This document shows, in pieces, positions 34,772-59,174 of a stretch of 64,000 bases of DNA. Origin of the DNA: Methanosarcina sp. 2.H.T.1A.6 (lineage in GTDB: Archaea > Halobacteriota > Methanosarcinia > Methanosarcinales > Methanosarcinaceae); NCBI RefSeq assembly GCF_000979455.1, contig NZ_JJOY01000030.1, positions 186,001-250,000 of the forward strand, written 5' to 3'. Below the pieces are notes generated by a model. The model did no database searches and was not told the DNA's origin. It saw only the letters and a list, made by a program, of their open reading frames with translations. Position numbers and translations under genes: made by a program. The stretch's first letter is position 1. Each line of letters starts with the position of its first letter.

Positions 34772-35093
34772 TTGGAAAGGTTAATATATTTGAAATATTG
34801 TGAAGAATATGTATATTTGTATTAAAAATTAGGCATAAACTTGAGATATGTTATGAGTATTAATGCTTGATGGATATATGTCAAAAATGAATCTTATCAG
34901 AGGCAGGAATCTGTTTGATCCCCCCATCTGCCATAAAATAGTTGCATGAGGTATTTTTTACTAAAGAATGGTGAAAATGTATTTATTCTGATTTTTTTGG
35001 CAACGGCCTTGATTCCTGTTACTCCTCTAGCAGGAACTGATTGTATACAGAACTCAGGAATTTTGTCTCTAACCCCGTACAGGAGGAAAATTT
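34772..35093 (+). promoter_or_regulatory. Promoter and ~300-nt leader of surface gene, duplicated at 39032-39342
   Basis: TTAATATATTTGAAA occurs at 34781 and 39041, 313 and 302 bp respectively before the proposed starts. Other shared blocks are CTATCAGA/CTTATCAGA, a GCAGGA(A/G)CTG phrase and the terminal ACAGGAGGAAAATTTACGA. The TATA-like block suggests transcription starts about 30 bp later, leaving a long untranslated leader. Confidence 0.5.
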
Positions 35094-35096
35094 ACG
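35081..35096 (+). promoter_or_regulatory. Perfect Shine-Dalgarno AGGAGG followed at 7 nt by ACG
   Basis: AGGAGG (35081-35086), spacer AAAATTT, then ACG (35094-35096) in frame with the signal peptide. The frame has a stop codon at 35070, and the first standard start (TTG, 35112) lies 25 nt from the site. The identical arrangement occurs at 39330-39345. Confidence 0.6.
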
Positions 35097-37952
35097 ACCA
35101 GAAAACTAATTTTGATATTGTTAACACTGATTCTGAGCAGCGGAGTCTGCCTTGCGGATAATTACGTAGGCGGAATCCCCCTCACCTCTGTCCAGAGCGG
35201 AACCGTAGACGGTGGTGTCTATGTTGACAGCTACTACGGAACAGCGGATCAGGGAATTAACGATGCAAAAACAATAGATCAGACATTTACCCTTCCGGAT
35301 AATGCCGAAGTCGAATGGGCAATGCTGCTCACTACCGTATATTGTGGTCACATGCAAAATAATTACTTGGGGACCGCAAACGTTAGCTTCAACGGTATGA
35401 CCCTTGGAAACGAAACCCTGAATATTCCTTTTTACTTCATTGTCAACGGAGGCAATGAGGGAGAAGCATACGTCCAGGTAAATGACCATGTAAACAGGGT
35501 AACCAGTGATTATATGATGTATTATGATGTCACGAACCTTGTAGAAGCCGGGGAAAACACCGCTGTAGTAAGCACGGCACCTCTCGATAGTTCCTTTGAC
35601 GGGCGGATAAAGCTGATAACCCTTGTCGTGGCTTACAATGACGGCAGCGGGAACGAGATCTGGTACCAGGTCAACCGCGGACATGACACGGATACTTATT
35701 ATGTAGAAGATTATCAAGGTGAAACTTACGTTGGAAGCACAGATTTTGAGGCAGCTTTGCCGGAAGGTTCTTCCCTGGCTGATGCAGAACTCACTGTTGT
35801 GCACATGGCAAGCACAGATGGAGCATACACTTTTAATGGTAATGATATCACCTCAGGCACGCCGCAGGGAACTTACTGCGGGTTCAATACATGGGACGTT
35901 AAAGACGATTTGGAATCCACCGGCAAAAACACCTTGACCTATAACCGGAATGCTGGATTCTACAAGTGTGCCCTTGGCATTCTGACGGCCGAATACACAA
36001 CATCATCTTCTGATGACACTTCTGATGACACCAGTGACGATACCTCTGATGACACTTCTGATGACACCAGTGATGATACCTCTGATGACACTTCTGACGA
36101 TACCTCTGATGACACCAGTGACGACACCTCTGACCTGGCTATACAGACGGTAAAAGTCTCGCACAATGGTTTAGCCAAAGCCTGGGACAAACTGAACAAC
36201 ACCGTAAGCGTTACTGTAATAAACAACGGTCCGGAGGATGCAGGCAGTTTTGCTCTCGAACTTTATTCTGATGACGCCCTTGTCGAAAGCAAGCAAGTTA
36301 CCGGACTTGCAAATGGGGCTACCGAAATGGTTGAGTTTTCCTGGAAGCCGGAAGAAATAAAGGATTATACCCTCAAGGCAGTTGTCGTCCCAAGTTCTAC
36401 CATAAGCGATACGGATGCGACAAATAATGAACTGAGTAAAGCCCAGACGGTGCTACATAACGGTTACGTTGGGGATAATCCTCTTGAAACTTATGCTCAC
36501 GGCACGGTTAAAGGAAACATTATTTATGATTATGGAAACAGCAGTTACAGCAATAAGGTATTTTCCGGAGATACATACGCTGTAAGCCACTCCCTGGAGC
36601 TTCCAGAAGGAGCAACTGTGAAATCTGCCCGGCTCTATAACTTCTGGACATGGAGTGCAACAGGTACTACTGGAGTTATTCCTTCCATGAGACTGCAGTT
36701 TGGAGATAGCCATCTAACCCCTGAAGCCGAATACGACGATCAGAAAGGCTGGGGATCACAGTATGACTACCCAACAGGGACCTGGGCTTATGACGTAACA
36801 GGGCTTGTGAACGGAAGCGGAACTTATACTACAGTGGTCACAAATACACATAGTGATGCCGGAAACTTTGTCTGTGTTGACGGAATCGCCCTGCTTGTGG
36901 TGTATGAAGACTCCTCTGGGAAGGAAATTGAATACTGGATCAACGAAGGCTGCGACATGGTAAGTACCATGAGTACTTCGGGTGGCCTGACTCCAGAGGA
37001 AGCTACCGCAGAAATTCCGTTTGAAGGATCCATAAATCTGAACAATGTAGAAGAGGCCCGTCTCTGGACTACAGTCCAGTCTGGAGGGCATGATGGGATA
37101 TCTCTGGAATTCAATGAAATGAACATTTCTGGGGTTTATGACTCGACTCCCTACTCTGATCTGGATATCGATGAAGCAAGGTCTGTCAGAGACAATCTCC
37201 TGGCGAAAAACAACAGGGTTAGAATAGTACCTCCCTTAGTTACGGATAACAGTGGCGATTATCTGGCTCCCTCAAATGCAATCCTTGTTGTCAGTTATAA
37301 AGATGGAGCATCTGTCACCCCTGCCCTTTCTCTCTCCGCAAGCCCCATCAGCCTGACTGTAGGCGAGGAGACTGAGGTTACGTATACCGTAACAAGTGAT
37401 AACTCCCCTGTTGAAGGAGCACTTGTTAACCTGAGCGGCTGTGCGACAGGTTCGGGAACGACCTATGCAAACGGGACTGTTGTGCTTGCGGTAAATGCAA
37501 GCTGCGAAGGAGCCATTAACGCAGAGGCCAGCAAAGACGGCTATGTCGGTGCAGAGCTTACCCAGCAGGCGATAGAAGCCTCCTCTTCGGAGTCCAATTC
37601 ATCTTCAACGGTATCGCTTAAAGTGAATATCATTCCTGCAGTTTCCCTGACGATCTCTCCGAATTCACTCGATTTCGGAACGGTCTCCCTGGGAACGCCG
37701 AGTGAGTCCTTGCCCCTGACTCTCCAGAACAACGGAGATACCAGTATAAAGGTTACTGCTGAAGTGAATGACCAGGAGAACGGTCCTTTCGAAACGGGAC
37801 TTCTGCTTGATCAGAGCATCTGGTCCATCTACAGTAAGGTCATAGCTGCAGAAAGTTCGGAAACCTCCGAAGCTCAGCTTGACCTTCCGGCAAACTATCC
37901 GTCTACAGGGGAATTCGATGGAAGCCTTATTTTTTGGGCAGAAGCAGCCTGA
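35094..37952 (+). CDS. Secreted DUF3344 surface protein with Asp-Asp-Thr-Ser repeat linker
   Basis: About 950 residues. A signal peptide (KLILILLTLILSSGVCLA) leads into a first DUF3344 domain (about residues 22-295). A low-complexity linker of ten SDDT units follows (36013-36130), then a CARDB-like domain (LAIQTVKVSHNGLAKA...), a second DUF3344 (from VLHNGYVGDNPLETYAHGTV to about residue 740, with EYWINEGCDM), an Ig-like domain and a final beta domain (LDFGTVSLG). It ends without a membrane anchor or sorting motif. The first standard start is TTG at 35112, giving no positively charged signal-peptide N-region; ACG at 35094 is better placed behind AGGAGG. Presumed cell-surface or extracellular; ligand unknown. 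Confidence 0.85.
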   Translation, partial: TTRKLILILLTLILSSGVCLADNYVGGIPLTSVQSGTVDGGVYVDSYYGTADQGINDAKTIDQTFTLPDNAEVEWAMLLTTVYCGHMQNNYLGTANVSFNGMTLGNETLNIPFYFIVNGGNEGEAYVQVNDHVNRVTSDYMMYYDVTNLVEAGENTAVVSTAPLDSSFDGRIKLITLVVAYNDGSGNEIWYQVNRGHDTDTYYVEDYQGETYVGSTDFEAALPEGSSLADAELTVVHMASTDGAYTFNGNDITSGTPQGTYCGFNTWDVKDDLESTGKNTLTYNRNAGFYKCALGILTAEYTTSSSDDTSDDTSDDTSDDTSDDTSDDTSDDTSDDTSDDTSDDTSDLAIQTVKVSHNGLAKAWDKLNNTVSVTVINNGPEDAGSFALELYSDDALVESKQVTGLANGATEMVEFSWKPEEIKDYTLKAVVVPSSTISDTDATNNELSKAQTVLHNGYVGDNPLETYAHGTVKGNIIYDYGNSSYSNKVFSGDTYAVSHSLELPEGATVKSARLYNFWTWSATGTTGVIPSMRLQFGDSHLTPEAEYDDQKGWGSQYDYPTGTWAYDVTGLVNGSGTYTTVVTNTHSDAGNFVCVDGIALLVVYEDSSGKEIEYWINEGCDMVSTMSTSGGLTPEEATAEIPFEGSINLNNVEEARLWTTVQSGGHDGISLEFNEMNISGVYDSTPYSDLDIDEARSVRDNLLAKNNRVRIVPPLVTDNSGDYLAPSNAILVVSYKDGASVTPALSLSASPISLTVGEETEVTYTVTSDNSPVEGALVNLSGCATGSGTTYANGTVVLAVNASCEGAINAEASKDGYVGAELTQQAIEASSSESNSSSTVSLKVNIIPAVSLTISPNSLDFGTVSLGTPSESLPLTLQNNGDTSIKVTAEVNDQENGPFETGLLLDQSIWSIYSKVIAAESSETSEAQLDLPANYPSTGEFDGSLIFWAEAA
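36013..36132. repeat. In-gene repeat encoding (SDDT)n
   Basis: The 12-bp units (TCTGATGACACT/AGTGACGATACC variants) encode ten consecutive acidic Ser-Asp-Asp-Thr motifs between two folded domains. The repeat could bind Ca2+ or act as a flexible spacer. Confidence 0.9.
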
Positions 37953-38407
37953 TAAGGCTGTTTCTCTATATGTATTTGATTAGAGAAACAGTGAAATTCA
38001 GAAAAGAATTCAAATCCCGGCCGAAAAAAGCTTTATTCCTTTTTATTATTTTTTTGGGTCTGCCATGTAAGTATGAAGAATATTGGGCAGAGTATCAGAA
38101 CATAATAAGCAGAGTACATAACTTTTTCTGACCTTACTTTCGCGCCTGAAGCCCTCCTTATACCGGAAATAAGAAATAAATCAGCGGCAATAGCTTTAGT
38201 TTGCCTGAAGCATATATGGGAAACTTTGGAAAATGAAGCAAATATGACAGGTAATTTCCATGCCGTGTCCGGAAGGAACAGGGCTTCTTAAGAAAGATTG
38301 GAGCACAAAAATTGTGAGGAATAATCATTTTTAAGGAAATGTTTGCTTATTTCTGGCCTTGTTAGATGGTTCTCCTTAGAATCCAAAAGAGTCTCATTGA
38401 ATTCAAC

Positions 38408-38659
38408 CTGTCTTTCCGCAGATGTCTTCAAAAAAATAACATTTTTCTTGCTATCGTTTTTGGAGAATTAGTCTAAAATTTGCAGTTATTATCTCAATTG
38501 AAGCTTAGGAAAATGGCTGCTAAAAGTTTTCAATGAAGGCAAAAAGCCGCAAATTTAGGAAAATATCAAAAACATACGTTTGGATAAACATGGAGTTTTT
38601 CCGAAAAAACGATAGCAGAAAAAATTGTGAAAATTGAACGGACATCTGAGGAAAGCCAG
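38408..38659. mobile_element. MITE copy 2 (252 bp)
   Basis: Same length and ends as copy 1 (30840-31091), with roughly five substitutions over 252 bp. It is flanked by a different perfect 6-bp direct repeat, TTCAAC (38402-38407 and 38660-38665). The different duplications show two independent insertions of the same element. No transposase is encoded in the window. Confidence 0.93.
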
Positions 38660-39031
38660 TTCAACGGATATTCGCGATTAATTTTTGAAGAGTAACCCCC
38701 CTGGATTAAGGATTGGTAGCGATTTGATTGTTAAATATTATTACTTTATTTAAAAATATTAATAATTTTTAAATAAGTATTTAAGTAATTAGCTTAACAA
38801 ATAGCCAGACTGATCACTAAATACGGAGTATTCAGGTTTTTTTCAAATTTTTTGCAGCAATCTGGTTAAAAAAGGAATATTGATTTAATAAAATGTGGTT
38901 ATTTTCCCGGGCTGAAAAGTTCCCAAAAAAGATACGTATTGAACCAACTAGCTCATTTTAAGGCTTTGAACATTATGAAATTGCCAGTTAATTTCCAGAA
39001 TAAAATAATTGTGCATACATTAAAGAAGCTT

Positions 39032-39342
39032 TTAGAAAGATTAATATATTTGAAAATTTGTTAATAAAATGGTTATTAGTATTAATAAATAGATGTAAAT
39101 TGGGAAGAAGTTATGGAGAAAATAATTCTGGAGATAGTCTGCAAAAGATAATCCTATCAGAAAAGGGAATAATCCAACGTTACCAGGCTTAAAAATTAAC
39201 TATGAGCGTTTTTCCAACTCACAATAGCAACAATTTGATTTTTTTTATCTGAAACCTATTGGATTTATGTTACTTCCTTGGCAGGAGCTGTTGTGTACAT
39301 AGCTCTGGGATTCTTTCTCCAAGACTTACAGGAGGAAAATTT
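39032..39342 (+). promoter_or_regulatory. Promoter and leader of the giant surface gene (paralogue of 34772-35093)
   Basis: TTAATATATTTGAAA at 39041 and the AGGAGGAAAATTTACG site at 39330-39345 correspond to the upstream region of the 35.1-kb gene, with conserved spacing of about 300 bp. Confidence 0.5.
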
Positions 39343-42300
39343 ACGAACAGGAAACTAATTTTGATATTGTTAACACTGATTCTGAGCAGTGGGATCTGTC
39401 TTGCCCTGCTTACAGGCACTGTAGCTGCAGATGACTGGGTAGGAGGTCTCCCGTTAACCACCGTCCAGACAGGAACAGTGACCGGAGACCTGTATATCTC
39501 CGGGAACCCGCCGTCCTCGTCATTCGTTACAACTGTGGACAGGACATTTACACTCCCGGAAGCTGCCGTGGCAGAGTCAGGCAGAGTCAAGTGGGCCCGG
39601 CTATATGTCTCAAGCTACTGCGGGCATATGCAGGATGCAAAATATATCACCTACACTACCAAGGCCGACTGGAACAACGACGGAACCTGGGACAACACCT
39701 GGACCGAGACTGACGAGGGGCAGCCATTCATTTACCTGCAGGGTGGGGACTATGGCGATGGCGGAAACGACAACAGCGAGTTTGCCGGGCACAGCACCGG
39801 GGAACCCTATCTGATGCTCAACGACCACACCAACCGTGTGACGAGTGACTACCTGAGCTGGTACGATGTGACGAACCTGATCCAGGAGGGTGAGGACACC
39901 ATAAAGGTTAAAGTGGACGCCACGGGTTCCTACGACGGCCGGATCAAGATAGTCGAGCTAGTTGTAGCATACGACGACGACTCCTCCACAACGCAGACCA
40001 CTTACTGGGTGAATGAGGGACACGACGCCTGCTCATATTATACGGAGGATAACCTGGATGAAGTTGCCACTGGAACCACCACGTTTGACACTACCGGGCT
40101 TTCCGACATAACCTCGGCTACACTCATCGCAGACTACATGGCGAGTAACAATGGGTACTACGGTTTCCCGACAGCAGAGAATGATTTCGTTGCATCAGAA
40201 AAAACCGGATCGTTTACAAACATAGGGCTCAACCGGGACAACCCTGAAGCGCAGGGCGACTACTCAGGGATTGATTCATGGGATGTGACCTCGTCAGTCT
40301 CCAGCAGCAGCGATGTTACGTTCGCCTATGCCAGGTACCTGCCGGCTACAGGCCTCGGACAATTCTACAAGATTCCCCTCGCATTCCTCGTGGTAAAAAA
40401 ACCGCTTCAATCAACCCCGGCGCCGACTGCCGAGTTCACCGCAAATCCTACCATAGGAGAAACGCCGTTGAACGTGTCGTTTACTGACCTGAGCACCGGG
40501 GCTCCCACTTCCTGGACCTGGAATTTCGGAGATGGAAGCACTTCTAATGAGCAGAATCCAATATATGCCTATAGTGCGGCCGGAACTTATGACGTTAACC
40601 TCACGGTTAGCAATGCTGGAGGAAGCGATTCTGAGGTAAAGACAAACTACATAACTGCAACAGTAGCACCAACAAATGACCTTACCATCTCAGGACTCGT
40701 CAACACCGTTCCGGCTTCGGCGGTCTTTGCCAGGGAAGCAAATACTGTGAAAGTAATGAATGTCAAAAACACCGGAACTGCCACCCTTACCAACATTTCA
40801 CTGTCCGTGTATGCAAGCGACGTATCCAGTGGGACAGTTCCCGTGAACACGACAACCATCGCATCGCTGGTGGGTGGAAAGACAACCACTGTAACCCTGA
40901 TCGACCCCACTATCCGCAACCTTGAAGGCGGCACCGTGACCTACACCGCAGTTGTTGACCCGGATAACCTTATCTCTGAAACTGACGAGACCAACAACAA
41001 AAAAATCAGTGCGGCCAAAGTGCTCAGATACAACGGGTATAAGGGTAAAGGTATCTACTGGGAAGGCGGAAGCAACATCACTACCAAACATACCTATGAT
41101 CTCCAGGGTAATCTTCTGTATTCCACGCAGCCTGATTCTGCTTACAAAGCTGTCGGATGGACTGACAGGACGGAAACCTGGACTGCCGAGGACCTTCCGA
41201 TCCCCATCGACTCCACAATAGAACAGGCATTCCTTTATTTCGCATACAACTGGGACCAAACGCCTGGCGGATATCCGTGGTTGAATCTTAATTTCAACGG
41301 GAACACAATTGATAACGGAAACCTCTCAACCGGAAGCGGAACCCTCTACAGGGACTGGAGTAATTTTGGCGGGTATGCTGATTATGAATATGGGCTCTGT
41401 GTCTACGATGTAACAGACAAGTTTAGCTCTGCCGGAAACAGCCTTGTAACTACTTCTGTTGGTAGCAACGTAAATGCATTGTATCCCAGCACGCTTGTCG
41501 TGATCTACCGGAACCCTAACGAAACCCGGAAGCAGATCTTCATTAATGAAGAATGCGACGAGCTGGGTTTATCTGCGTCCAGTTACGGTACCACTCTCGA
41601 AGAAGCTACAGCATATTCTCCTTTCACCGGCATGTCTATTGACGTGAACCAGGTTACAAACGCTATGTTGTACAGCTTCGCAGGAAGTGCAGGGCCCGAT
41701 GAAGGAAACCTGCTGTTCAACGGAAACACCGTGGCAACTCAAGCATGGCAGGGAAGTTCCAGATCAGGAAGCCCACTGGTCTTTAATGCTACGAACTACA
41801 TCAGCGAAACCGGAAACGAGGCAGGCATCCAGGGCACGACTAGTGGAGGCATGGACGCGCTCCAGCAGATCCTTGTTGTTGAATATCCTGAAGCAGCGCC
41901 GGTGGCTGATTTCTCTGCAAATGTGACCAACGGGGATGCTCCGCTTGAAGTCAAATTCACTGATGCATCAACTGGAACTATCGCATCCTATTCATGGGAC
42001 TTCAACAACGACGGTTCTATTGACAGTTATGAGCAGAATCCTTCACATACATACGCTTCAGCCGGTACCTATACCGTGAATCTCACAGTAACTGGACCTG
42101 GAGGCAGTGATTCCGAGGTGAAAACCGGATATATCACGGTTAGTGAACCTCTCCCTGAGGCTCCCGTTGCGGCATTTACAGCAACGCCGACTTCTGGGGA
42201 TGCACCTCTAACTGTCAACTTCACCGACCAGTCAACTGGTATTGTCTCGTCCTATGCTTGGGACTTTGATAACGACGGCACTCTCGACAGTTACGAACAA

Positions 42301-45300
42301 AGCCCATCGCATACCTACGAAACTGCGGGTACCTACAATGTGAACTTCACGGTAGCCGGGCCAGGAGGCAGTGATTCGGAGGTGAAGGAAGGATATATTT
42401 TAGTCAGTGAACCGCTTCCTGCCGCCCCTGTAGCTAACTTTACGGCAAATGTGACCAGCGGCAATGCTCCCCTGGATGTCCAGTTCACCGATGCTTCAAA
42501 TGGTATCGTTTCATCCTATGCCTGGGACTTTGACAATGACGGCAATGTAGATAGCACTGAACAGAACCCCTCATTTACCTACACGACTGCAGGGACTTAT
42601 TCAGTCAACCTTACGGTCACGAATGCAGGTGGAAGTGATTTCGAGGTTAAAGACGGATATATCATCGTAAGTGAACCTTTCCCAGTACCACCCGTTGCAG
42701 CTTTCACAGCAACCCCAACTTCTGGGAATGCCCCTCTTACGGTCAACTTCACTGACCAATCTACTGAGTCCCCGACCTCATGGGCTTGGGACTTTGATAA
42801 CGACGGCAGTGTAGATAGCACTGAACAGAATCCCTCATATATCTATGAGACCGTCGGTACTTACTCAGTAAACCTTACGGTCGCTAACGCAGGTGGAAGC
42901 GACAGCGAAGTCAAAACAGATTACATCGTTGTCACTGGTGGGAGTATCTCCCTTCCATGGCATGATTCCTGTGACTCGGTCGAGGGGTGGACGCTCACCA
43001 ACTGCGGGTTGATCAGCACCACGGTCTACGAAGGAGAGCACAGCATCGGCTGCACCCCTGCCTCGAAGGCCGCCTCCGCCGAGCGGACGATCCACATTCC
43101 TGCCGGAGCAAAGACACTGCGGTTCAACGCCGCTGCGGTGACAAACTCTTATGCGTATAACGAATGGGTGAAGGTGTACATCGATGGAGCTGAGCAATGC
43201 TCAATTCCCATCACCACTGGCGGGGCGGCGGACTGGAACCGGTATGCTATCGACCTCTCCGGCATTGCTCCAGGTGAGCATACCTTCAAGGTTCTAGCAT
43301 ACTGGAATACAGCCGGCTGGGACAACATTGGCTTCTACATCGACAACATCTGGATAATTGCAGACGAGGAGGTCCTGAGTGTCATAAACGTCACTCCGTC
43401 CGAGGCCGAGTTATCGGTCGGAGAAAACACAACCTTCTCTGCCGATGCGTACACCCAATACTGCGAACACCTGACAGATACCACCTTTACATGGTCTTCT
43501 TCCAATGAGACAGTCGGTACCATTAATTCTGTTACAGGTATCTTTTCCGCGCTTTCTGGAGGGATTACAGATGTGAAAGCAACTGCAGAAGGCGTCTCAG
43601 GCAGTGCCCAGGTGACCGTCAACAGCAGCAGTTCCGGCGGAGACAAAACGCCTGTTGCAAACTTCACGGCTGATGTCACATCCGGCAACGCTCCTCTCAC
43701 AGTCAAGTTCACCGACAATTCGACAAACTCTCCTACCTCCTGGGCCTGGGACTTCGAGAACGACGGTACTGTTGACAGCATGGAACCGAACCCCTCATAT
43801 ACATACTCTTCAGCCGGCACCTATACTGTGAATCTCACGGTCACCGGACCAGAGGGAAGTGATTCTGAAGTAAAAGATGGCTATATTGTAGTCAGTGAAC
43901 CTCTCCCAGCAGCACCTGTTGCAGGCTTTACGGCAACACCTACTTCTGGCGATGCCCCCCTCACTGTCAACTTTACCGATCAGTCCACAGGTACACCGAC
44001 TGAATGGTTCTGGGACTTCGGGGACGGTACCAGTGCTAATGAGCAGGATGCCTCACACACGTACACGTCAGCTGGCACCTATACCGTCAACCTTACAGTC
44101 ACGAATGCAGGCGGAAGCAACAGCATCCAGCTCGTCGATTGGATTACGGTGACCGAATCACCGACTCCGGCAGAACAGCCGGATGTCATTGTTTCAGCAA
44201 TCACACTGAATGCCAACGAAGTCTTTGCAAATGAGGCAAACAACATCTCGGCAAAGGTAGAGAATAGAGGCACAGGTTCTGCCGAATCCTTTACGGTCAT
44301 GTTTACTGTGAATGGTATTGACACGAATGTCACTGTTGATGGCCTTGAAGCGGGAGCAAATGCCACGTTCACGATAACCGACCCAACGATCAGGGCTTTT
44401 GGAGACAGTGTGACAATCACAGTCTCTGCAGATCCAGGGAATGAAATCGCCGAGTCCAGCGAGACTAACAACCAGATGAATATCACAAAGACCGTGGTTT
44501 ATAACGGGTACAAGGGCAAGCGGTATACCGATGGAAATGACCTGAACACACAGGCTGCTTTTGAAGGAAAGTACGAACTTGTTTACTCAGCCGGAAATAC
44601 GGAATATGCCGCAGCAAACTGGGCCGCAAAAACCTATGCATGGTCATCAACAGACCTCCCGATCCCTGCAGGAGCAACGGTCGAAAGTGCCAGGCTTTAC
44701 CAGTCGTACACCTGGAACAAGATGGCAAATGACCCGGCATTTACGATGTCGTTCAACAACAACATCATAACGCCGATTGCTACCTATAAGGACAGGAAGG
44801 GTTATGGTACCTTCGATTACCCTTGCGGGCTCTATGTCTACAATGTAACGTCATTGTTTGACCCCGCAGGAAACAGCATTACCGTCACCCCGGAGACCGG
44901 AAACAACTATGGAATCTACGGGGCGTATCTGGTTGTCGTCTACAATGATCCGAATGCTACTGAGAAAAAGATCTGGATCAATGATGAGTTCGATCTCCTC
45001 ACATCCAAAAATTCTTATGCCGTCAATAACGAGGAGGCTACGGCTTATGCAACCTTCAGTGACATAAATACGGAAGGAATTTCAAAAGCCACATCAATAG
45101 CCACCCTTTCCAGTGGAAGCGACGATGGTAAGAGTAAATTCTTTTTCAACGACAATGAGTTCACAGGTTTCTGGATGGATTACCAGCCAACGCCTCAGAT
45201 CGGTTTCTCCTCCTATAACGTGACCGAAGCCATTCAGAACGGAACGGATACTGCCAGGATACAGAGCTACGATACGGGCACCGGTGGAGATGTCATGTCT

Positions 45301-46497
45301 GCTATGAATGCCATTCTGGTGGTTGAATATGTCGGGACCCAAAATGAAACAGAAATTCCTGTTGCTGCATTTAATGCGACACCTACTTCAGGGGATTCCC
45401 CGCTTATCGTCAACTTCACCGATCAGTCTACAGGTACACCTACTTCGTGGGCCTGGGACTTCGAGAACGATGGAACCATTGACAGTACGGAACAGAATCA
45501 TACCCATATCTACCAAACCACCGGTACATATACGGTCAACCTTACGGTTGCCAATGAAGCCGGAAGCAACAGTACTGTAAAAACAGACTATATTATCGTT
45601 TCAGAATCTTCCACGCCGATACAACAGGAACCAGTTGCCGCGTTCACAGCAGACGTGACGGGTGGTACTGCTCCTCTCATGGTCAACTTCACTGACCAGT
45701 CTACGAACTCACCTACATCGTGGCTCTGGGACTTCGGGGACGGTACAACCTCTAACGATCAGACTGTTTCTCACACGTATACATCAGCTGGAACCTATAC
45801 TGTCAACCTGACGGTAGCAAACTCGGTCGGGAGCGACAGCGAAGCCAGAACTGATTACATCGTTGTCTCAACCCAGGAAATTCCTGATACAACAAAACCT
45901 GTGATTGAGTCGGTAGTTATGTTCCCTGCAAATACAACCGCAGGTTCCACTATTAATTTCAGTGTAAATGCAACTGATGATGTGGAAGTTACTGAAGTAA
46001 CAGCAGGAGAGATCCAGCTCACAAAAACAGAAGGCATCTGGCAGGGCAGCATAACTGCTCCTTCGTCACTCGGGGATTATTCCCTGCAGATCACTGCAAA
46101 GGATGCTGCCGGAAACATAGCAGAAACTTCGGTACCCTATCGTGTAGTTCAGCTTTCCGGTGGGGCTAATATTGCTGTTTCGCCAAGAGCCAGCAGTGTT
46201 GCAGCAGGAAACACAGTTTCTCTTTCTATCAAGGTGAAAAACACCCAGAACATCGATGACACCTTTAAAGTCCGCATCAGTGTCAGTGAACTTCCTGCCT
46301 TCTATCAGGCAGACCTTTCCTGGTTTAACTGGACTGAAAAGGTTGTAAGTCTAAAAGCAGGAGAGGAAATCCGGGTCCCGGTGGAAGTAACTGTTCCGGG
46401 TGAGACTGCAGCCGGACGTAAGCTTTTCAGGGCAAACGTGAAATCGGAAACGTCTGAGATCAGTGGGTTTGATACCGGGTACCTGGTAATATCCTGA
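39343..46497 (+). CDS. Giant surface protein: three DUF3344, two CARDB, nine PKD domains
   Basis: 2384 residues from the proposed ACG start; a TTG at 39259 is the conventional alternative. A signal peptide (KLILILLTLILSSGICLA) is followed by DUF3344-1 (39440-40410), PKD1 (40420-40665), CARDB (40675-41025) and DUF3344-2 (41030-41890). Next come PKD2-5 (41895-42940), a jelly-roll-like domain (42950-43370), a BIG2-like domain (43370-43635) and PKD6-7 (43655-44155). CARDB (44170-44500), DUF3344-3 (44500-45340), PKD8-9 (45350-45880), an Ig-like module and a terminal beta domain complete it. Several PKDs carry the Ca-binding-like loop DFDNDGTLDS. There is no C-terminal anchor. It is probably a long extracellular adhesin or sheath-type protein; the ligand is unknown. 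Confidence 0.87.
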   Translation, partial: TNRKLILILLTLILSSGICLALLTGTVAADDWVGGLPLTTVQTGTVTGDLYISGNPPSSSFVTTVDRTFTLPEAAVAESGRVKWARLYVSSYCGHMQDAKYITYTTKADWNNDGTWDNTWTETDEGQPFIYLQGGDYGDGGNDNSEFAGHSTGEPYLMLNDHTNRVTSDYLSWYDVTNLIQEGEDTIKVKVDATGSYDGRIKIVELVVAYDDDSSTTQTTYWVNEGHDACSYYTEDNLDEVATGTTTFDTTGLSDITSATLIADYMASNNGYYGFPTAENDFVASEKTGSFTNIGLNRDNPEAQGDYSGIDSWDVTSSVSSSSDVTFAYARYLPATGLGQFYKIPLAFLVVKKPLQSTPAPTAEFTANPTIGETPLNVSFTDLSTGAPTSWTWNFGDGSTSNEQNPIYAYSAAGTYDVNLTVSNAGGSDSEVKTNYITATVAPTNDLTISGLVNTVPASAVFAREANTVKVMNVKNTGTATLTNISLSVYASDVSSGTVPVNTTTIASLVGGKTTTVTLIDPTIRNLEGGTVTYTAVVDPDNLISETDETNNKKISAAKVLRYNGYKGKGIYWEGGSNITTKHTYDLQGNLLYSTQPDSAYKAVGWTDRTETWTAEDLPIPIDSTIEQAFLYFAYNWDQTPGGYPWLNLNFNGNTIDNGNLSTGSGTLYRDWSNFGGYADYEYGLCVYDVTDKFSSAGNSLVTTSVGSNVNALYPSTLVVIYRNPNETRKQIFINEECDELGLSASSYGTTLEEATAYSPFTGMSIDVNQVTNAMLYSFAGSAGPDEGNLLFNGNTVATQAWQGSSRSGSPLVFNATNYISETGNEAGIQGTTSGGMDALQQILVVEYPEAAPVADFSANVTNGDAPLEVKFTDASTGTIASYSWDFNNDGSIDSYEQNPSHTYASAGTYTVNLTVTGPGGSDSEVKTGYITVSEPLPEAPVAAFTATPTSGDAPLTVNFTDQSTGIVSSYAWDFDNDGTLDSYEQSPSHTYETAGTYNVNFTVAGPGGSDSEVKEGYILVSEPLPAAPVANFTANVTSGNAPLDVQFTDASNGIVSSYAWDFDNDGNVDSTEQNPSFTYTTAGTYSVNLTVTNAGGSDFEVKDGYIIVSEPFPVPPVAAFTATPTSGNAPLTVNFTDQSTESPTSWAWDFDNDGSVDSTEQNPSYIYETVGTYSVNLTVANAGGSDSEVKTDYIVVTGGSISLPWHDSCDSVEGWTLTNCGLISTTVYEGEHSIGCTPASKAASAERTIHIPAGAKTLRFNAAAVTNSYAYNEWVKVYIDGAEQCSIPITTGGAADWNRYAIDLSGIAPGEHTFKVLAYWNTAGWDNIGFYIDNIWIIADEEVLSVINVTPSEAELSVGENTTFSADAYTQYCEHLTDTTFTWSSSNETVGTINSVTGIFSALSGGITDVKATAEGVSGSAQVTVNSSSSGGDKTPVANFTADVTSGNAPLTVKFTDNSTNSPTSWAWDFENDGTVDSMEPNPSYTYSSAGTYTVNLTVTGPEGSDSEVKDGYIVVSEPLPAAPVAGFTATPTSGDAPLTVNFTDQSTGTPTEWFWDFGDGTSANEQDASHTYTSAGTYTVNLTVTNAGGSNSIQLVDWITVTESPTPAEQPDVIVSAITLNANEVFANEANNISAKVENRGTGSAESFTVMFTVNGIDTNVTVDGLEAGANATFTITDPTIRAFGDSVTITVSADPGNEIAESSETNNQMNITKTVVYNGYKGKRYTDGNDLNTQAAFEGKYELVYSAGNTEYAAANWAAKTYAWSSTDLPIPAGATVESARLYQSYTWNKMANDPAFTMSFNNNIITPIATYKDRKGYGTFDYPCGLYVYNVTSLFDPAGNSITVTPETGNNYGIYGAYLVVVYNDPNATEKKIWINDEFDLLTSKNSYAVNNEEATAYATFSDINTEGISKATSIATLSSGSDDGKSKFFFNDNEFTGFWMDYQPTPQIGFSSYNVTEAIQNGTDTARIQSYDTGTGGDVMSAMNAILVVEYVGTQNETEIPVAAFNATPTSGDSPLIVNFTDQSTGTPTSWAWDFENDGTIDSTEQNHTHIYQTTGTYTVNLTVANEAGSNSTVKTDYIIVSESSTPIQQEPVAAFTADVTGGTAPLMVNFTDQSTNSPTSWLWDFGDGTTSNDQTVSHTYTSAGTYTVNLTVANSVGSDSEARTDYIVVSTQEIPDTTKPVIESVVMFPANTTAGSTINFSVNATDDVEVTEVTAGEIQLTKTEGIWQGSITAPSSLGDYSLQITAKDAAGNIAETSVPYRVVQLSGGANIAVSPRASSVAAGNTVSLSIKVKNTQNIDDTFKVRISVSELPAFYQADLSWFNWTEKVVSLKAGEEIRVPVEVTVPGETAAGRKLFRANVKSETSEISGFDTGYLVIS

Positions 46498-48794: not shown

Positions 48795-49186
48795 CCTTTT
48801 CATATAAGACGCAAACCAATGCTTCGGAGCCTTAAAGAAATCAAACCTGATAAGCAGGTGAAATTCACTCCTATTTATTTTCCAGTGAGGTTGAGGTTTG
48901 CGTTTTCATTTAGTTAAAACATTTAACTAATGATTTTGAATAACTCTAATTTTTTAATAATTAAGTCTTAATAGATGACAATTTTTTCAAATAAAATAAC
49001 ATTAATTAGAAAAATTGATATACAAATAATATATAAAGTATGACAAAAATCAAAATTTGTGAGAACTTGTGTCCGGTTTGAATATCCTGAAAACGATTCC
49101 GCAAATATTTCTAAAAACCCGTGACCTGTGTCGTTAAAATTGGAAGAAGCTCAAAATAACCGAAATTGAAAGGGGACTGGAGTAAT
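48795..49186. other. Spacer with inverted repeat and promoter
   Basis: GACGCAAACC (about 48808-48818) and GGTTTGCGT (about 48894-48903) form an inverted pair 75 bp apart downstream of the NikR-like gene. A TATA-like AATAATATATAAAG lies near 49025-49040. Nothing else is recognised. Confidence 0.4.
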
Positions 49187-50932
49187 ATGTTGTCAAAGGT
49201 CAGGAAATTGATCAGATTTTCCCTGTTCGTTACAGGGGTATCGCTTCTTATTATGTACATTTCTCCATGCATGGCAACTTACAATTTTGAAGGTACCCCT
49301 GAACAGGACGAGCTGGTTGAAGTCATATCAGGCACGGTAAAAGGCGGGCTGTACATTGACGGAGGTGACGGTCTTAAAAAAACTCCTTACGTTAAGGAAT
49401 TCAATGTCCCGGGAGATTCCGTAACATGGGCAAAGGTATATGTAGGGGTATGGGGGGGGACAGAAGCGAAAAAAGGAACTCTGGATCTTACGGTTGGCGG
49501 GAAAAAGTTTGAAAGTCTTGATCTGGAAGGCAAAGCGGATAAGGGGGACGATGAGGATCAGAATCCTGCGACATATTGTTCAGGGCATGGGGTATACTGG
49601 GTTGCCTATGACGTAGGCACAAACCTGAGTACCGGGCCCGTAACAGTAGAAGCCAGAACGGAAGGGGACATTGATGGTAGGGTCTACGGCATAGTCCTTG
49701 CTGCAGTATATGAAGATAAAGAAGGGCAGAATACAAAGTACTGGGTTGAAGAAGGAAACATAAACCTTCACGGCAAAGGGTGGAGTGAAGGCCTGGAGTC
49801 AACACATGATGAAGCATATGCGGACTTCTCTGGAAAGGTTGATGTGGATAAGTACAAGACTGCAAACCTTGCTGTAGTGTACCTCTGCGGCAGTCCGGGG
49901 CTTGAAGATTCCCTCTACTTTAACGACGAGCAGCTCTCGGACGGGGAGAATAAGAACGACATAGCAAATTCAAAAAGTTATTTTGATTTAAAATTCTTTG
50001 ATGTAATGGACTTTCTTGCAGAAGATGACAATGAGCTCAAGTTTCAAAGAGACGATGAAGATTATGTGCATCCGGTGCTGGCTGGTCTGAGTCTGGGAAC
50101 TGGAGAAGAAGGAGATTCTGACCTTATAGTCTCCGGGATTACCCTACCAGTTCTCTATGCAGGGCAAGACAATACTATAAAAGCAGACATCAAAAACATA
50201 GGAAAAGACTCTGCATATGGTTTTCAGGCAGCACTTTATGCTGATGAGGAAATTGTATCCACGGCTCCAGTATCTTCTCTTTCGGATGGTAAAAGTAAAA
50301 CAATTGAGTTCAACTGGAATCCTGCCAGTGACGGAGAGAAATCCCTGAAAGTATATGTTGATTACACGAACAAGAAAAAAGAACTTTGTGAAATAAACAA
50401 CTGGAACACCCCTTTTCTAGCTAAGATTGTAGATCTAACCCCTCCTGAGCTTGAAATTGAAAACCCGGAAGATGGAGGCCTTGTAGACGCTGGATACCTC
50501 ACAGTCAGCGGAACGGTTAAAGACACAAACCGGAACCTCACAGTAGATGTTAACGGTCAGAAAGCCCTGCTTTCAGGCGAGAGCTGGAGCGCAAACGTAC
50601 CTGTGGTTTCCGGCTCCAATAAAATAGTTGTTTGTGCGGTAGACGGGAAAAACAACACCGGAAGGGAACTCATCCTCGTAGAGGGAAAAGCTTCATCCCT
50701 TTCAGACTTCAAGCAATACTCAGGGTCTGATAATGAAACAGAACCCGTTTTCAAACCATCCCCGGGGTCTGATAATGAAACAGAACCAATCAACCAGGCA
50801 ATTCTAACTTCTCAGAATGGAGAGAAGGAAATACAGACCGTACAGACAGGTTTCTCTGAAGTTTACGGAGAGATAGGGTTTATTTCTGCAGTTTTATTCA
50901 TAAGGTTTCGAAACAGGGGGAAACGGTCATGA
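49187..50932 (+). CDS. DUF3344-CARDB surface protein with C-terminal membrane segment
   Basis: 581 residues. The signal peptide (KLIRFSLFVTGVSLLIMYI) is followed by a DUF3344 domain (about residues 35-310; subgroup signature YWVEEGNINLHGKGW). A CARDB domain (SDLIVSGITLPVLYAGQDNT...), a short Ig-like domain (SGTVKDTNRNLTVDVNG), a doubled SGSDNETEP linker and a C-terminal hydrophobic stretch with basic end (IGFISAVLFIRFRNRGKRS) complete it. The ATG at 49187 follows GGAG; an upstream in-frame TTG (49166) is less likely. Its stop overlaps the start of the next gene by 4 bp (ATGA), indicating a two-gene operon. It is closest in layout to the 55.5-57.3-kb protein. Confidence 0.88.
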   Translation: MLSKVRKLIRFSLFVTGVSLLIMYISPCMATYNFEGTPEQDELVEVISGTVKGGLYIDGGDGLKKTPYVKEFNVPGDSVTWAKVYVGVWGGTEAKKGTLDLTVGGKKFESLDLEGKADKGDDEDQNPATYCSGHGVYWVAYDVGTNLSTGPVTVEARTEGDIDGRVYGIVLAAVYEDKEGQNTKYWVEEGNINLHGKGWSEGLESTHDEAYADFSGKVDVDKYKTANLAVVYLCGSPGLEDSLYFNDEQLSDGENKNDIANSKSYFDLKFFDVMDFLAEDDNELKFQRDDEDYVHPVLAGLSLGTGEEGDSDLIVSGITLPVLYAGQDNTIKADIKNIGKDSAYGFQAALYADEEIVSTAPVSSLSDGKSKTIEFNWNPASDGEKSLKVYVDYTNKKKELCEINNWNTPFLAKIVDLTPPELEIENPEDGGLVDAGYLTVSGTVKDTNRNLTVDVNGQKALLSGESWSANVPVVSGSNKIVVCAVDGKNNTGRELILVEGKASSLSDFKQYSGSDNETEPVFKPSPGSDNETEPINQAILTSQNGEKEIQTVQTGFSEVYGEIGFISAVLFIRFRNRGKRS

Positions 50933-54536: not shown

Positions 54537-55520
54537 TCAGCTGTCTCCCTCCGGAGTTTCAGGCTCTGCAAATTCAAGTACAAGTATTTCATTTGTTACC
54601 AGAAGGTAATCCCCATTATCCTGAATACTGACAAAATTCCCTGCAGACTCCAGATAAGCCCCCACAGGCCTCTCATCCAGAGCAACCTGGACAGTTTCGT
54701 TTGTCTGATATATGTTCTTCCAGCTTTTTCCCCCTCCAAACAGGAGCTGTATGAGATCTCCAATAACCGGTATACTCCTGGTTTTCTCATTAAAGAAAAG
54801 CTTGTTCCGGGCTCCTGCGCCTGAACTGTAGCCCCCGGAAGGAGAGACTGTTATCAGGCGTGCATCTGCAACATTCTCAGAGTCAATATCTCCCTCAAAG
54901 TAAGCGGTCGTTGTGGCCATTTCGGGATCTATTCCGTATTCGGCATACAGCATGTCGCAGCCTTCGTTGATCCAGTATTCGATCACCGGTAACTCCGAAC
55001 CTTCATAAACGAGCAGAAGCCCTATGCCCTGCACGCAAAAGGTACTACCGTTCTCGTCCGCATTCACCAGCGAGATAGAATAGTTGCCTGGTTCGGAAAT
55101 TTTCCCGCTCAGGTCATAAGCATGCGTGCCTGAAAAAAAATCGTACCTGGATACAAAACCCTTTGTATCCGTATACATCTGTCCCCCTTGAAGAGGCACA
55201 ACCGTCCCAGAATGTACAAGAGAAGCAGTGAATTCCGGATAGATGCCTTCAAGCCCTTTTTTGCTCCAGACCCAGTAAACATAAGCCTTTGCAACTTTTA
55301 TAGAACTTCCGGCAGGGGGTTTGATATTAAAGTTAACCTGATAACTATCATTGTATTCAAGCTCCCCGCTGTACCTGCTGTCCCCCAGAGAAAAGTCAAG
55401 AGCCCCATGGTTCCCATCATGGAGGACAGTCTGCAGGGGTTTGTCTCCGGCATATGAAGCCGAGGCCGGGGTGATGAGAAGCAGGAGATTAAATAAAATC
55501 ACAACTTTTCTCAAATTCAT
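54537..55520 (-). CDS. Single-domain DUF3344 surface protein
   Basis: About 327 residues: a signal peptide (KVVILFNLLLLITPASA) and one DUF3344 domain filling the rest (DKPLQTVLHDGNHGALDFS, YVYWVWSKKG, VIEYWINEGCDML, ILVLEF at the end). There is no membrane anchor or linker. The ATG at 55520 has GAGGATA upstream and lies inside the 3' end of the preceding gene, overlapping it by 32 bp, so the two are co-transcribed and probably translationally coupled. Closest in signature to the second DUF3344 of the 35.1-kb protein and to the 57.9-kb protein. Confidence 0.88.
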   Translation of the reverse strand: MNLRKVVILFNLLLLITPASASYAGDKPLQTVLHDGNHGALDFSLGDSRYSGELEYNDSYQVNFNIKPPAGSSIKVAKAYVYWVWSKKGLEGIYPEFTASLVHSGTVVPLQGGQMYTDTKGFVSRYDFFSGTHAYDLSGKISEPGNYSISLVNADENGSTFCVQGIGLLLVYEGSELPVIEYWINEGCDMLYAEYGIDPEMATTTAYFEGDIDSENVADARLITVSPSGGYSSGAGARNKLFFNEKTRSIPVIGDLIQLLFGGGKSWKNIYQTNETVQVALDERPVGAYLESAGNFVSIQDNGDYLLVTNEILVLEFAEPETPEGDS

Positions 55521-57926: not shown

Positions 57927-59174
57927 ATGACTTATGGGATAAAAAAGGACCTAGAGATAAATACGGAGCAAAGAGCAAAAAACAGGCAAACAAAAAGAAT
58001 TTGCAAAGGCAGAAGGGAAATATCAAGTCGAGTAGGGAATACGCTCTGTCTGGCGGTGGGACTATGTAGCCTGATGGCTGTATTGTGTTGCCTGATGATC
58101 ACACCTGTCTTTGCCCAGTCTCCAGAGAATAATGGCTATGTGGCAGACAAACCTCTTGAAGTGTACAGCCATGATACGGTTCAGGGAGACCTCTTCTATA
58201 CTGTAGGGAACAGCTATTACAGTGGAAAGGTCTATCCCGGGGACGTATATTCTGTGAGCCACAATGTCAACTTGCCGGAGGGGGCAACCGTGAAATTTGC
58301 AAGGCTCTATACCTACTGGACCTGGAGTGCCGAAGGAGTCACAGGGAGGTATCCTGAGATGAACCTTAGCTTTAATGGGGAAAGGCTTGAACCTGAACGG
58401 GAATACAGTGACAGGAAAGGCTGGGGCATTTATGATTATCCTACGGGTACCTGGGCTTACGATGTGAGTGCGTACGTTTCCGGTTCGGGCACCTTTAGCA
58501 CGGACATTGAAAACACAGGCTCCGGTACTCCTTATGTCTGCTTTGATGGGGTGGGTTTGCTTATCGTATATACGGACCCGAACGGGAAATATATCGAATA
58601 CTGGATCGGTGAAGGAGCTGACGAACTCAATTCCCAGATAGACGAAAACGGAAACCCACTTTACTATGCTACCTCAAACCAGACGATCTGTGAAATGCTC
58701 AGGCCCACGCTGCAGCTCCCTGTCCTCAGCGCTACTCTCTGGACGGTCACTCAATCCGGGAACTGGGAGGATAATGCCCTTCTGGTTAACGAGGAAAAGT
58801 TCCCCGGAATCTGCAATGGCAAACCTTACCCTGACCTGGATATTGACGTAAGAGAAGTCAAGGACTACCTGAAATCCGGAGAAAATTCAATTCTTTTCCA
58901 GGCTGCAGGAGATTATGTGGTGCCTTCAGGGGCTTTCCTTGTGCTTGAAAAAGACTCTCTGGCAGAAGAAGCGCAGGCCTCCCCAGGGGAACCGTCGGGG
59001 AATCCGGGAGAAAAAGATATAACTCCGGAAGCTTCCGGCACAGAAAGTTCCGGAACTGAAACTTCCGGAACCGAAGCAGAAAAAGCTCCAGGATTTGAAT
59101 TAATTTCTACTCTTGTCCTTTTAACAGGGGGAAAACTGGCTGCAGGGCACCGAAAGCAGAAAGCCCGAAGATAA
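57927..59174 (+). CDS. DUF3344 surface protein with PGF-like C-terminus
   Basis: 415 residues from the chosen ATG (57927, with AAGGG upstream); ATG 57888 or TTG 57867 would extend it. A long basic N-region precedes the signal helix (LCLAVGLCSLMAVLCCLMI). One DUF3344 domain (GYVADKPLEVYSHDTVQGD to PSGAFLVLEK, with IEYWIGEGADEL) is followed by a Ser/Thr/Glu/Gly-rich linker (EASGTESSGTETSGTEAE). It ends with APGFELISTLVLLTGGKLAAGHRKQKARR-like sequence arranged as PGF, hydrophobic stretch and basic tail, as in PGF-CTERM proteins cut by archaeosortase A. The hydrophobic stretch is weak, containing Lys, so sorting is uncertain. Confidence 0.85.
   Translation: MTYGIKKDLEINTEQRAKNRQTKRICKGRREISSRVGNTLCLAVGLCSLMAVLCCLMITPVFAQSPENNGYVADKPLEVYSHDTVQGDLFYTVGNSYYSGKVYPGDVYSVSHNVNLPEGATVKFARLYTYWTWSAEGVTGRYPEMNLSFNGERLEPEREYSDRKGWGIYDYPTGTWAYDVSAYVSGSGTFSTDIENTGSGTPYVCFDGVGLLIVYTDPNGKYIEYWIGEGADELNSQIDENGNPLYYATSNQTICEMLRPTLQLPVLSATLWTVTQSGNWEDNALLVNEEKFPGICNGKPYPDLDIDVREVKDYLKSGENSILFQAAGDYVVPSGAFLVLEKDSLAEEAQASPGEPSGNPGEKDITPEASGTESSGTETSGTEAEKAPGFELISTLVLLTGGKLAAGHRKQKARR

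Follow-up and report, generated by a model that had tools for sequence, protein, structure and literature searches.

At two sites in a 64,000-nucleotide stretch of the genome of Methanosarcina sp. 2.H.T.1A.6 (hereafter the window), the place expected for the start codon of a large surface-protein gene, behind a perfect Shine-Dalgarno (SD) sequence, is occupied by the triplet ACG. Is this ACG an initiation codon, or does translation of these genes begin elsewhere?

Two DUF3344 genes with ACG behind the Shine-Dalgarno sequence

The motif AGGAGG-AAAATTT-ACG (AGGAGGAAAATTTACG) occurs in exact copies at positions 35081-35096 and 39330-39345, as stated in a first-pass annotation of this DNA. A motif search yields no third copy in the window even if 2 mismatches are allowed, shuffled sequences average 0.17 matches, and the excess over chance is settled by the orthologues described below. 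Throughout the 4.07-Mb genome, the ACG form is present solely at the two window sites, and the corresponding ATG form, AGGAGGAAAATTTATG, once. The reading frame of each ACG encodes a signal peptide and continues through an intact gene for a DUF3344 surface protein (PF11824; Pfam matches of 487.6 and 648.4 bits, respectively, against a curated cut-off of 27.2). The features are as follows:

34964..35080, + strand: 5' leader of gene 1, homologous in 25 family members (alignment A1), containing TTCCTGTTA and ATTTTGTCTC
35070..35072, + strand: TAA stop codon in frame with ACG 35094, barring an upstream start
35081..35086, + strand: SD sequence AGGAGG of gene 1, with few changes across 29 genes
35094..35096, + strand: ACG, proposed initiation codon of gene 1
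35094..35159, + strand: signal peptide of gene 1, TTRKLILILLTLILSSGVCLAD (boundary estimated by eye)
35094..37952, + strand: gene 1, DUF3344-CARDB-DUF3344 surface protein, 952 codons from ACG
35112..35114, + strand: TTG, rejected as an alternative to ACG in gene 1
39259..39261, + strand: TTG 84 nt 5' of ACG, not conserved and rejected as the start of gene 2
39330..39335, + strand: SD sequence AGGAGG of gene 2
39343..39345, + strand: ACG, proposed initiation codon of gene 2
39343..39429, + strand: signal peptide of gene 2, TNRKLILILLTLILSSGICLALLTGTVAA (boundary estimated by eye)
39343..46497, + strand: gene 2, DUF3344/PKD/CARDB surface protein, 2384 codons from ACG
39361..39363, + strand: TTG 3' of ACG, rejected as the start of gene 2

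Gene 1 contains no ATG, GTG or TTG between the TAA codon and ACG 35094, and its first standard codon is TTG 35112, which is located 25 nt from AGGAGG and 18 nt 3' of the ACG, entails the loss of the charged N-region and is missing in several orthologues. In gene 2, TTG 39259 is the sole standard start upstream and TTG 39361 the first one downstream. The sequence agrees with the earlier description of the stop codon at 35070 and of TTG 35112. The signal peptides had likewise been placed correctly in frame, but the peptide quoted for gene 1 (TRKLILILL) lacked one residue, the N-terminus being T-T-R-K-L-I-L-I-L-L (ACG ACC AGA AAA).

The two genes belong to a cluster of DUF3344-related genes that extends from 35094 to 59174, with further DUF3344 matches at 49598-49942, 54822-55460 (minus strand) and 58113-58961. 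The upstream regions of the cluster genes at 49166 and 57867 were both read and are devoid of AGGAGG-ACG. Between its N-terminal domain and CARDB, the gene 1 protein harbours about ten SDDT repeats (36050-36200); a related acidic repeat is found at this position in the orthologue of genome G001, and the region probably represents a length-variable linker.

The codon and its neighbourhood in related genes

Protein and pattern searches, together with fetched stretches, covered 31 Methanosarcina genomes. Leader and signal-peptide start are shared by 29 genes, which come from 11 ACG-bearing Methanosarcina genomes and the ATG outgroup G022. The homologous codon is ACG in 24 of the 29 genes, at a spacing of 7 nt from the SD sequence (8 nt in one case), and at exactly this codon the remaining five carry ATG, likewise at about 7 nt from the SD sequence, which answers the question raised at the outset whether orthologues replace ACG by ATG. 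A sequencing error as the source of the ACG is ruled out by its presence in 11 separately sequenced genomes. A pattern with seven spacer nucleotides and ACG matches 20 sites in 11 of the 31 genomes and none in a reversed control; with the codon left unconstrained, the remaining family members found carry ATG.

The phenomenon is narrowly distributed. None of 81 genomes from 13 other genera of the Methanosarcinaceae contains the cassette, and a wider pattern for ACG starts in unrelated Methanosarcina genes returned 2 isolated extra matches versus 3 in the reversed control. Since a survey sample of 462 kb (about 224 genes) shows a strong SD sequence followed by ACG at spacing 7-8 in the DUF3344 cassette family only, and in no unrelated gene, the putative ACG start is family-specific, confined to the Methanosarcina cassette family and no genome-wide rule.

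Within the family, copy number and architecture vary. Genome G001 contains three ACG genes, and G004, G005 and G026 each have an ATG copy (470-551 codons) close to an ACG copy (838-967 codons). In G004, G026 and G028, the cassette is also found at the head of fusions in which CARDB-like sequence replaces the N-terminal DUF3344 domain. The ATG-type tandem copy of G003 (L152, 2872-3255) is a pseudogene with a broken frame and an SD sequence degraded to GGGAGA, and an intact ACG copy is located nearby.

This truly broken copy, albeit of the ATG type, is what might be cited for the view that the genes have lost their ATG and now persist as silent, decaying copies. Yet, the ACG genes are long and uninterrupted, and their ACG is old and invariant. 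Since dN/dS between orthologues amounts to about 0.12-0.25 over hundreds of codons, they are, by this measure, constrained proteins under purifying selection rather than wreckage, and decay is highly improbable.

A further regularity concerns the third base of the codon. When the codon is mapped onto the mature-domain tree, its first and third bases are unchanged throughout and base 2 changes twice (C/T), while codon -1 occurs as TTT, TTA, TTC, TTG, GTT, CTT, TCT, TCA or ATG. If ACG were merely a threonine codon, its third base would be expected to drift. The comparison was drawn for the 15 ACG genes whose codon -1 is no start codon, with 27 conserved four-fold degenerate codons of the mature domain as controls, and it presumes similar evolutionary rates for leader and mature domain. 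Each of the 27 controls changed at its third base between one and six times (mean 3.7), among them five threonine codons with 2-5 changes each, versus none at ACG; codon 11 of the signal peptide, which is mostly ACN, shows seven. The comparison loses force through gene conversion among leaders, a likely event in this genome, but cassette codons 2-20 do vary despite it.

The argument from threonine drift bears directly on the alternative that a standard codon nearby, i.e., TTG at +18 or +24, an upstream TTG or codon -1, is the actual start and that ACG is an internal threonine codon or untranslated. This alternative draws on TTG at +18/+24, which many relatives share with the two window genes, and on codon -1, which is a standard start in 9 of the 24 ACG genes (ATG in G003b, G004b and G028b, TTG in six). 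None of these codons is conserved, however; TTG 35112 and 39361 as well as the upstream TTG 39259, use of which would have refuted the reading of the first-pass annotation, were rejected. The charged N-region that a start at +18 would drop is included in the ATG orthologues. Codon -1 is highly variable, and it would lie at spacing 4 after AGGAGG, where the 462-kb sample contains no ATG, GTG or TTG among the codons listed; ATG follows AGGAGG mostly at spacing 6-9.

Three genes are particularly telling. G007_5193, G024_7981 and G024_3820 contain an in-frame stop at -24 and no standard start between this stop and the ACG, and their next standard start is found at +99, +123 and +51, respectively, i.e., beyond the signal peptide or at its end. 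Moreover, no upstream start in any frame of G024_7981 and G024_3820 stays open up to the ACG. Judged from the reading frames, no ATG, GTG or TTG is able to supply the signal peptide in these three genes, which thus combine ACG at a normal SD spacing with the absence of any other usable start. Taken over the family, a nearby standard start as the general explanation is unlikely; in the nine genes with ATG or TTG at codon -1, the start may nonetheless have shifted by one codon.

Ribosomes might also enter from a short upstream open reading frame by frameshifting or readthrough, such that ACG would again be an internal threonine codon. The -1 frame of gene 1 is indeed open from -157 to +65 and includes ATG and TTG codons, but the upstream open stretch is unconserved in every frame and is closed or startless in most relatives. 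The indels in the leaders of relatives are not multiples of three, which also argues against translation through the leader. Frameshifting from an upstream frame was rejected on these grounds and is the most far-fetched of the routes considered.

All 29 genes trace back to a single cassette and hence do not count as 29 independent cases. The most parsimonious history, as reconstructed from the sequences, comprises at least two changes between ATG and ACG: an old one that separates G022 (ATG) from all others, and a single reversion to ATG in tandem copy A within the group G003/G004/G005/G026. Part of the likeness among the 29 genes may stem from gene conversion. Between gene 1 and gene 2, the first 25 codons are 85% identical (35094-35170 versus 39343-39420) and the mature parts 45%, which suggests that the two genes exchanged the cassette or underwent gene conversion. 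The choice put forward initially, ACG as a start codon or descent of both genes from one ancestor, is therefore not exclusive: the options are compatible, and both appear to be true, one leader/signal-peptide cassette having been inherited. The accompanying claim, that an ACG inherited in this way argues for function, gains support from the comparative evidence, according to which the ACG would be kept by selection.

The leader itself contains a conserved element, TTCCTGTTA, followed by a partly complementary stretch (alignment A1, columns 75-127), and single-sequence folds of several family members form a hairpin in the TTCCTGTTA region. In an RNAalifold consensus, a candidate stem that would hide the SD sequence (UUCUUUCUCU/AGGAGGAAGA) has 93% of its cells paired, a value reached by 26 of 500 shuffles; just one pair is changed on both sides, and covariation is not significant. 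An Rfam search of the leader region gave nothing above chance.

Initiator tRNA and a proposed mechanism

The explanation we favour, with a probability of roughly 80%, is that translation of both genes, like that of most of their relatives in Methanosarcina, is initiated at ACG, and that this codon is used weakly, by the methionine initiator tRNA and with the aid of the SD sequence. In every genome with ACG genes, initiator-type tRNA arms contain the anticodon CAT only, and ARAGORN places two tRNA-Met genes at the CAT-arm sites of the genome studied here. A dedicated initiator tRNA with a CGU anticodon was rejected accordingly. An initiator-like anticodon arm with CGT, GGGCTCGTAACCC, occurs once each in G006 (L161) and G029 (L162); ARAGORN predicts no tRNA at either site, and neither genome has ACG genes. 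Given that initiator arms carry CAT only, ACG would be read by ordinary initiator Met-tRNA with a mismatch at the middle position.

According to the proposed mechanism, the perfect AGGAGG 7 nt upstream of ACG would position the 30S subunit, and the normal initiator tRNA (anticodon CAU) would start at ACG despite this single mismatch. The product would be a large DUF3344 surface protein, exported by means of an ordinary Sec signal peptide of the form M-[TNSD]-R-K-hydrophobic. As the initiating residue lies inside the cleavable signal peptide, the start could not be read from the N-terminus of the mature protein. Archaea and eukaryotes have the initiation factors aIF1, aIF1A and aIF2 in common. 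Archaeal aIF1 destabilizes complexes on non-AUG codons (PMC6237735), and in an E. coli reporter the output of ACG was 0.1-1.5% of that of ATG (PMC6925171). AGGAGG at start-like spacing is uncommon among the genes of the 462-kb sample, and the perfect SD sequence plausibly compensates for the poor start codon.

We infer from the conserved codon and its setting that translation would begin with methionine at ACG, that initiation would be weak, and that this weakness would be the cause of its retention, acting as a built-in brake in most lineages. Some lineages would later have regained a standard start, either by a change of the ACG itself to ATG, in one tandem copy, or through TTG or ATG at codon -1. 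The step from a conserved ACG start to a regulatory brake is a longer one, and we infer it tentatively: ACG might be kept since start-codon stringency of the aIF1 type sets the output of the surface proteins, allowing cells to raise or lower them jointly, with ATG and ACG tandem copies differing in level. We consider this regulatory role possible, though doubtful.

Editing offers another route to the same protein. If the C of the ACG codon were converted to U in the mRNA, the ribosome would meet AUG, as is the case for ndhD and psbL in land-plant chloroplasts, and the exchange partner of ACG among the relatives is exactly ATG. However, neither an enzyme nor a target context can be named for such editing, and we know of no C-to-U editing of mRNA in archaea. 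AUG start codons created by C-to-U editing are established in chloroplasts, but neither in bacteria nor in algal chloroplasts has this type of editing been observed (PMC9845219). Editing is thus very unlikely here, and direct initiation at ACG remains the preferred reading.

Comparison with known start codons

Archaeal start codons are listed as AUG, GUG and UUG in a review (PMC7531240), and Ribo-seq added CUG for small open reading frames of M. mazei (PMC11456600); ACG is absent from the main text of both papers. In the literature searched, which was covered partially and included few subscription papers, no conserved ACG start is reported for archaea, and DUF3344 in Methanosarcina is mentioned once in passing. 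If true, a conserved natural ACG start extends the archaeal set of start codons in a genus with working genetics, and provides a direct test of the tolerance of aIF1/aIF2 for a middle-position mismatch in archaea. Gene finders restricted to ATG, GTG and TTG would then miscall the starts of a large surface-protein family, and perhaps of others. ACG and ATG tandem copies within one genome represent a ready-made comparison.

In domain content and export signal, the proteins described here resemble other DUF3344 (PF11824) surface proteins of methanogens; a standard start is generally available in the DUF3344 genes collected from other methanogens, whereas ACG is limited to one Methanosarcina clade. 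The edited chloroplast starts of rpl2, ndhD and psbL (PMC9845219) likewise show a genomic ACG where homologues have ATG, and the Methanosarcina case differs in that archaeal mRNA is not known to be edited in this way.

In both of these comparisons the likeness lies in the sequence; two further systems resemble the proposed mechanism. The bacterial genes infC and pcnB use the rare start codon AUU as a brake and resemble the Methanosarcina genes in that a poor start codon is conserved within a strong context; codon, domain of life and gene type are different, and autoregulation by an initiation factor is not in evidence in Methanosarcina. Near-cognate initiation at ACG occurs in eukaryotes, e.g., in yeast ALA1, where it is weak and employs the methionine initiator tRNA with its CAU anticodon, as proposed here. 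Compared to these eukaryotic starts, the Methanosarcina site is positioned by an SD sequence, would be the sole start of its protein and belongs to an archaeal surface-protein family.
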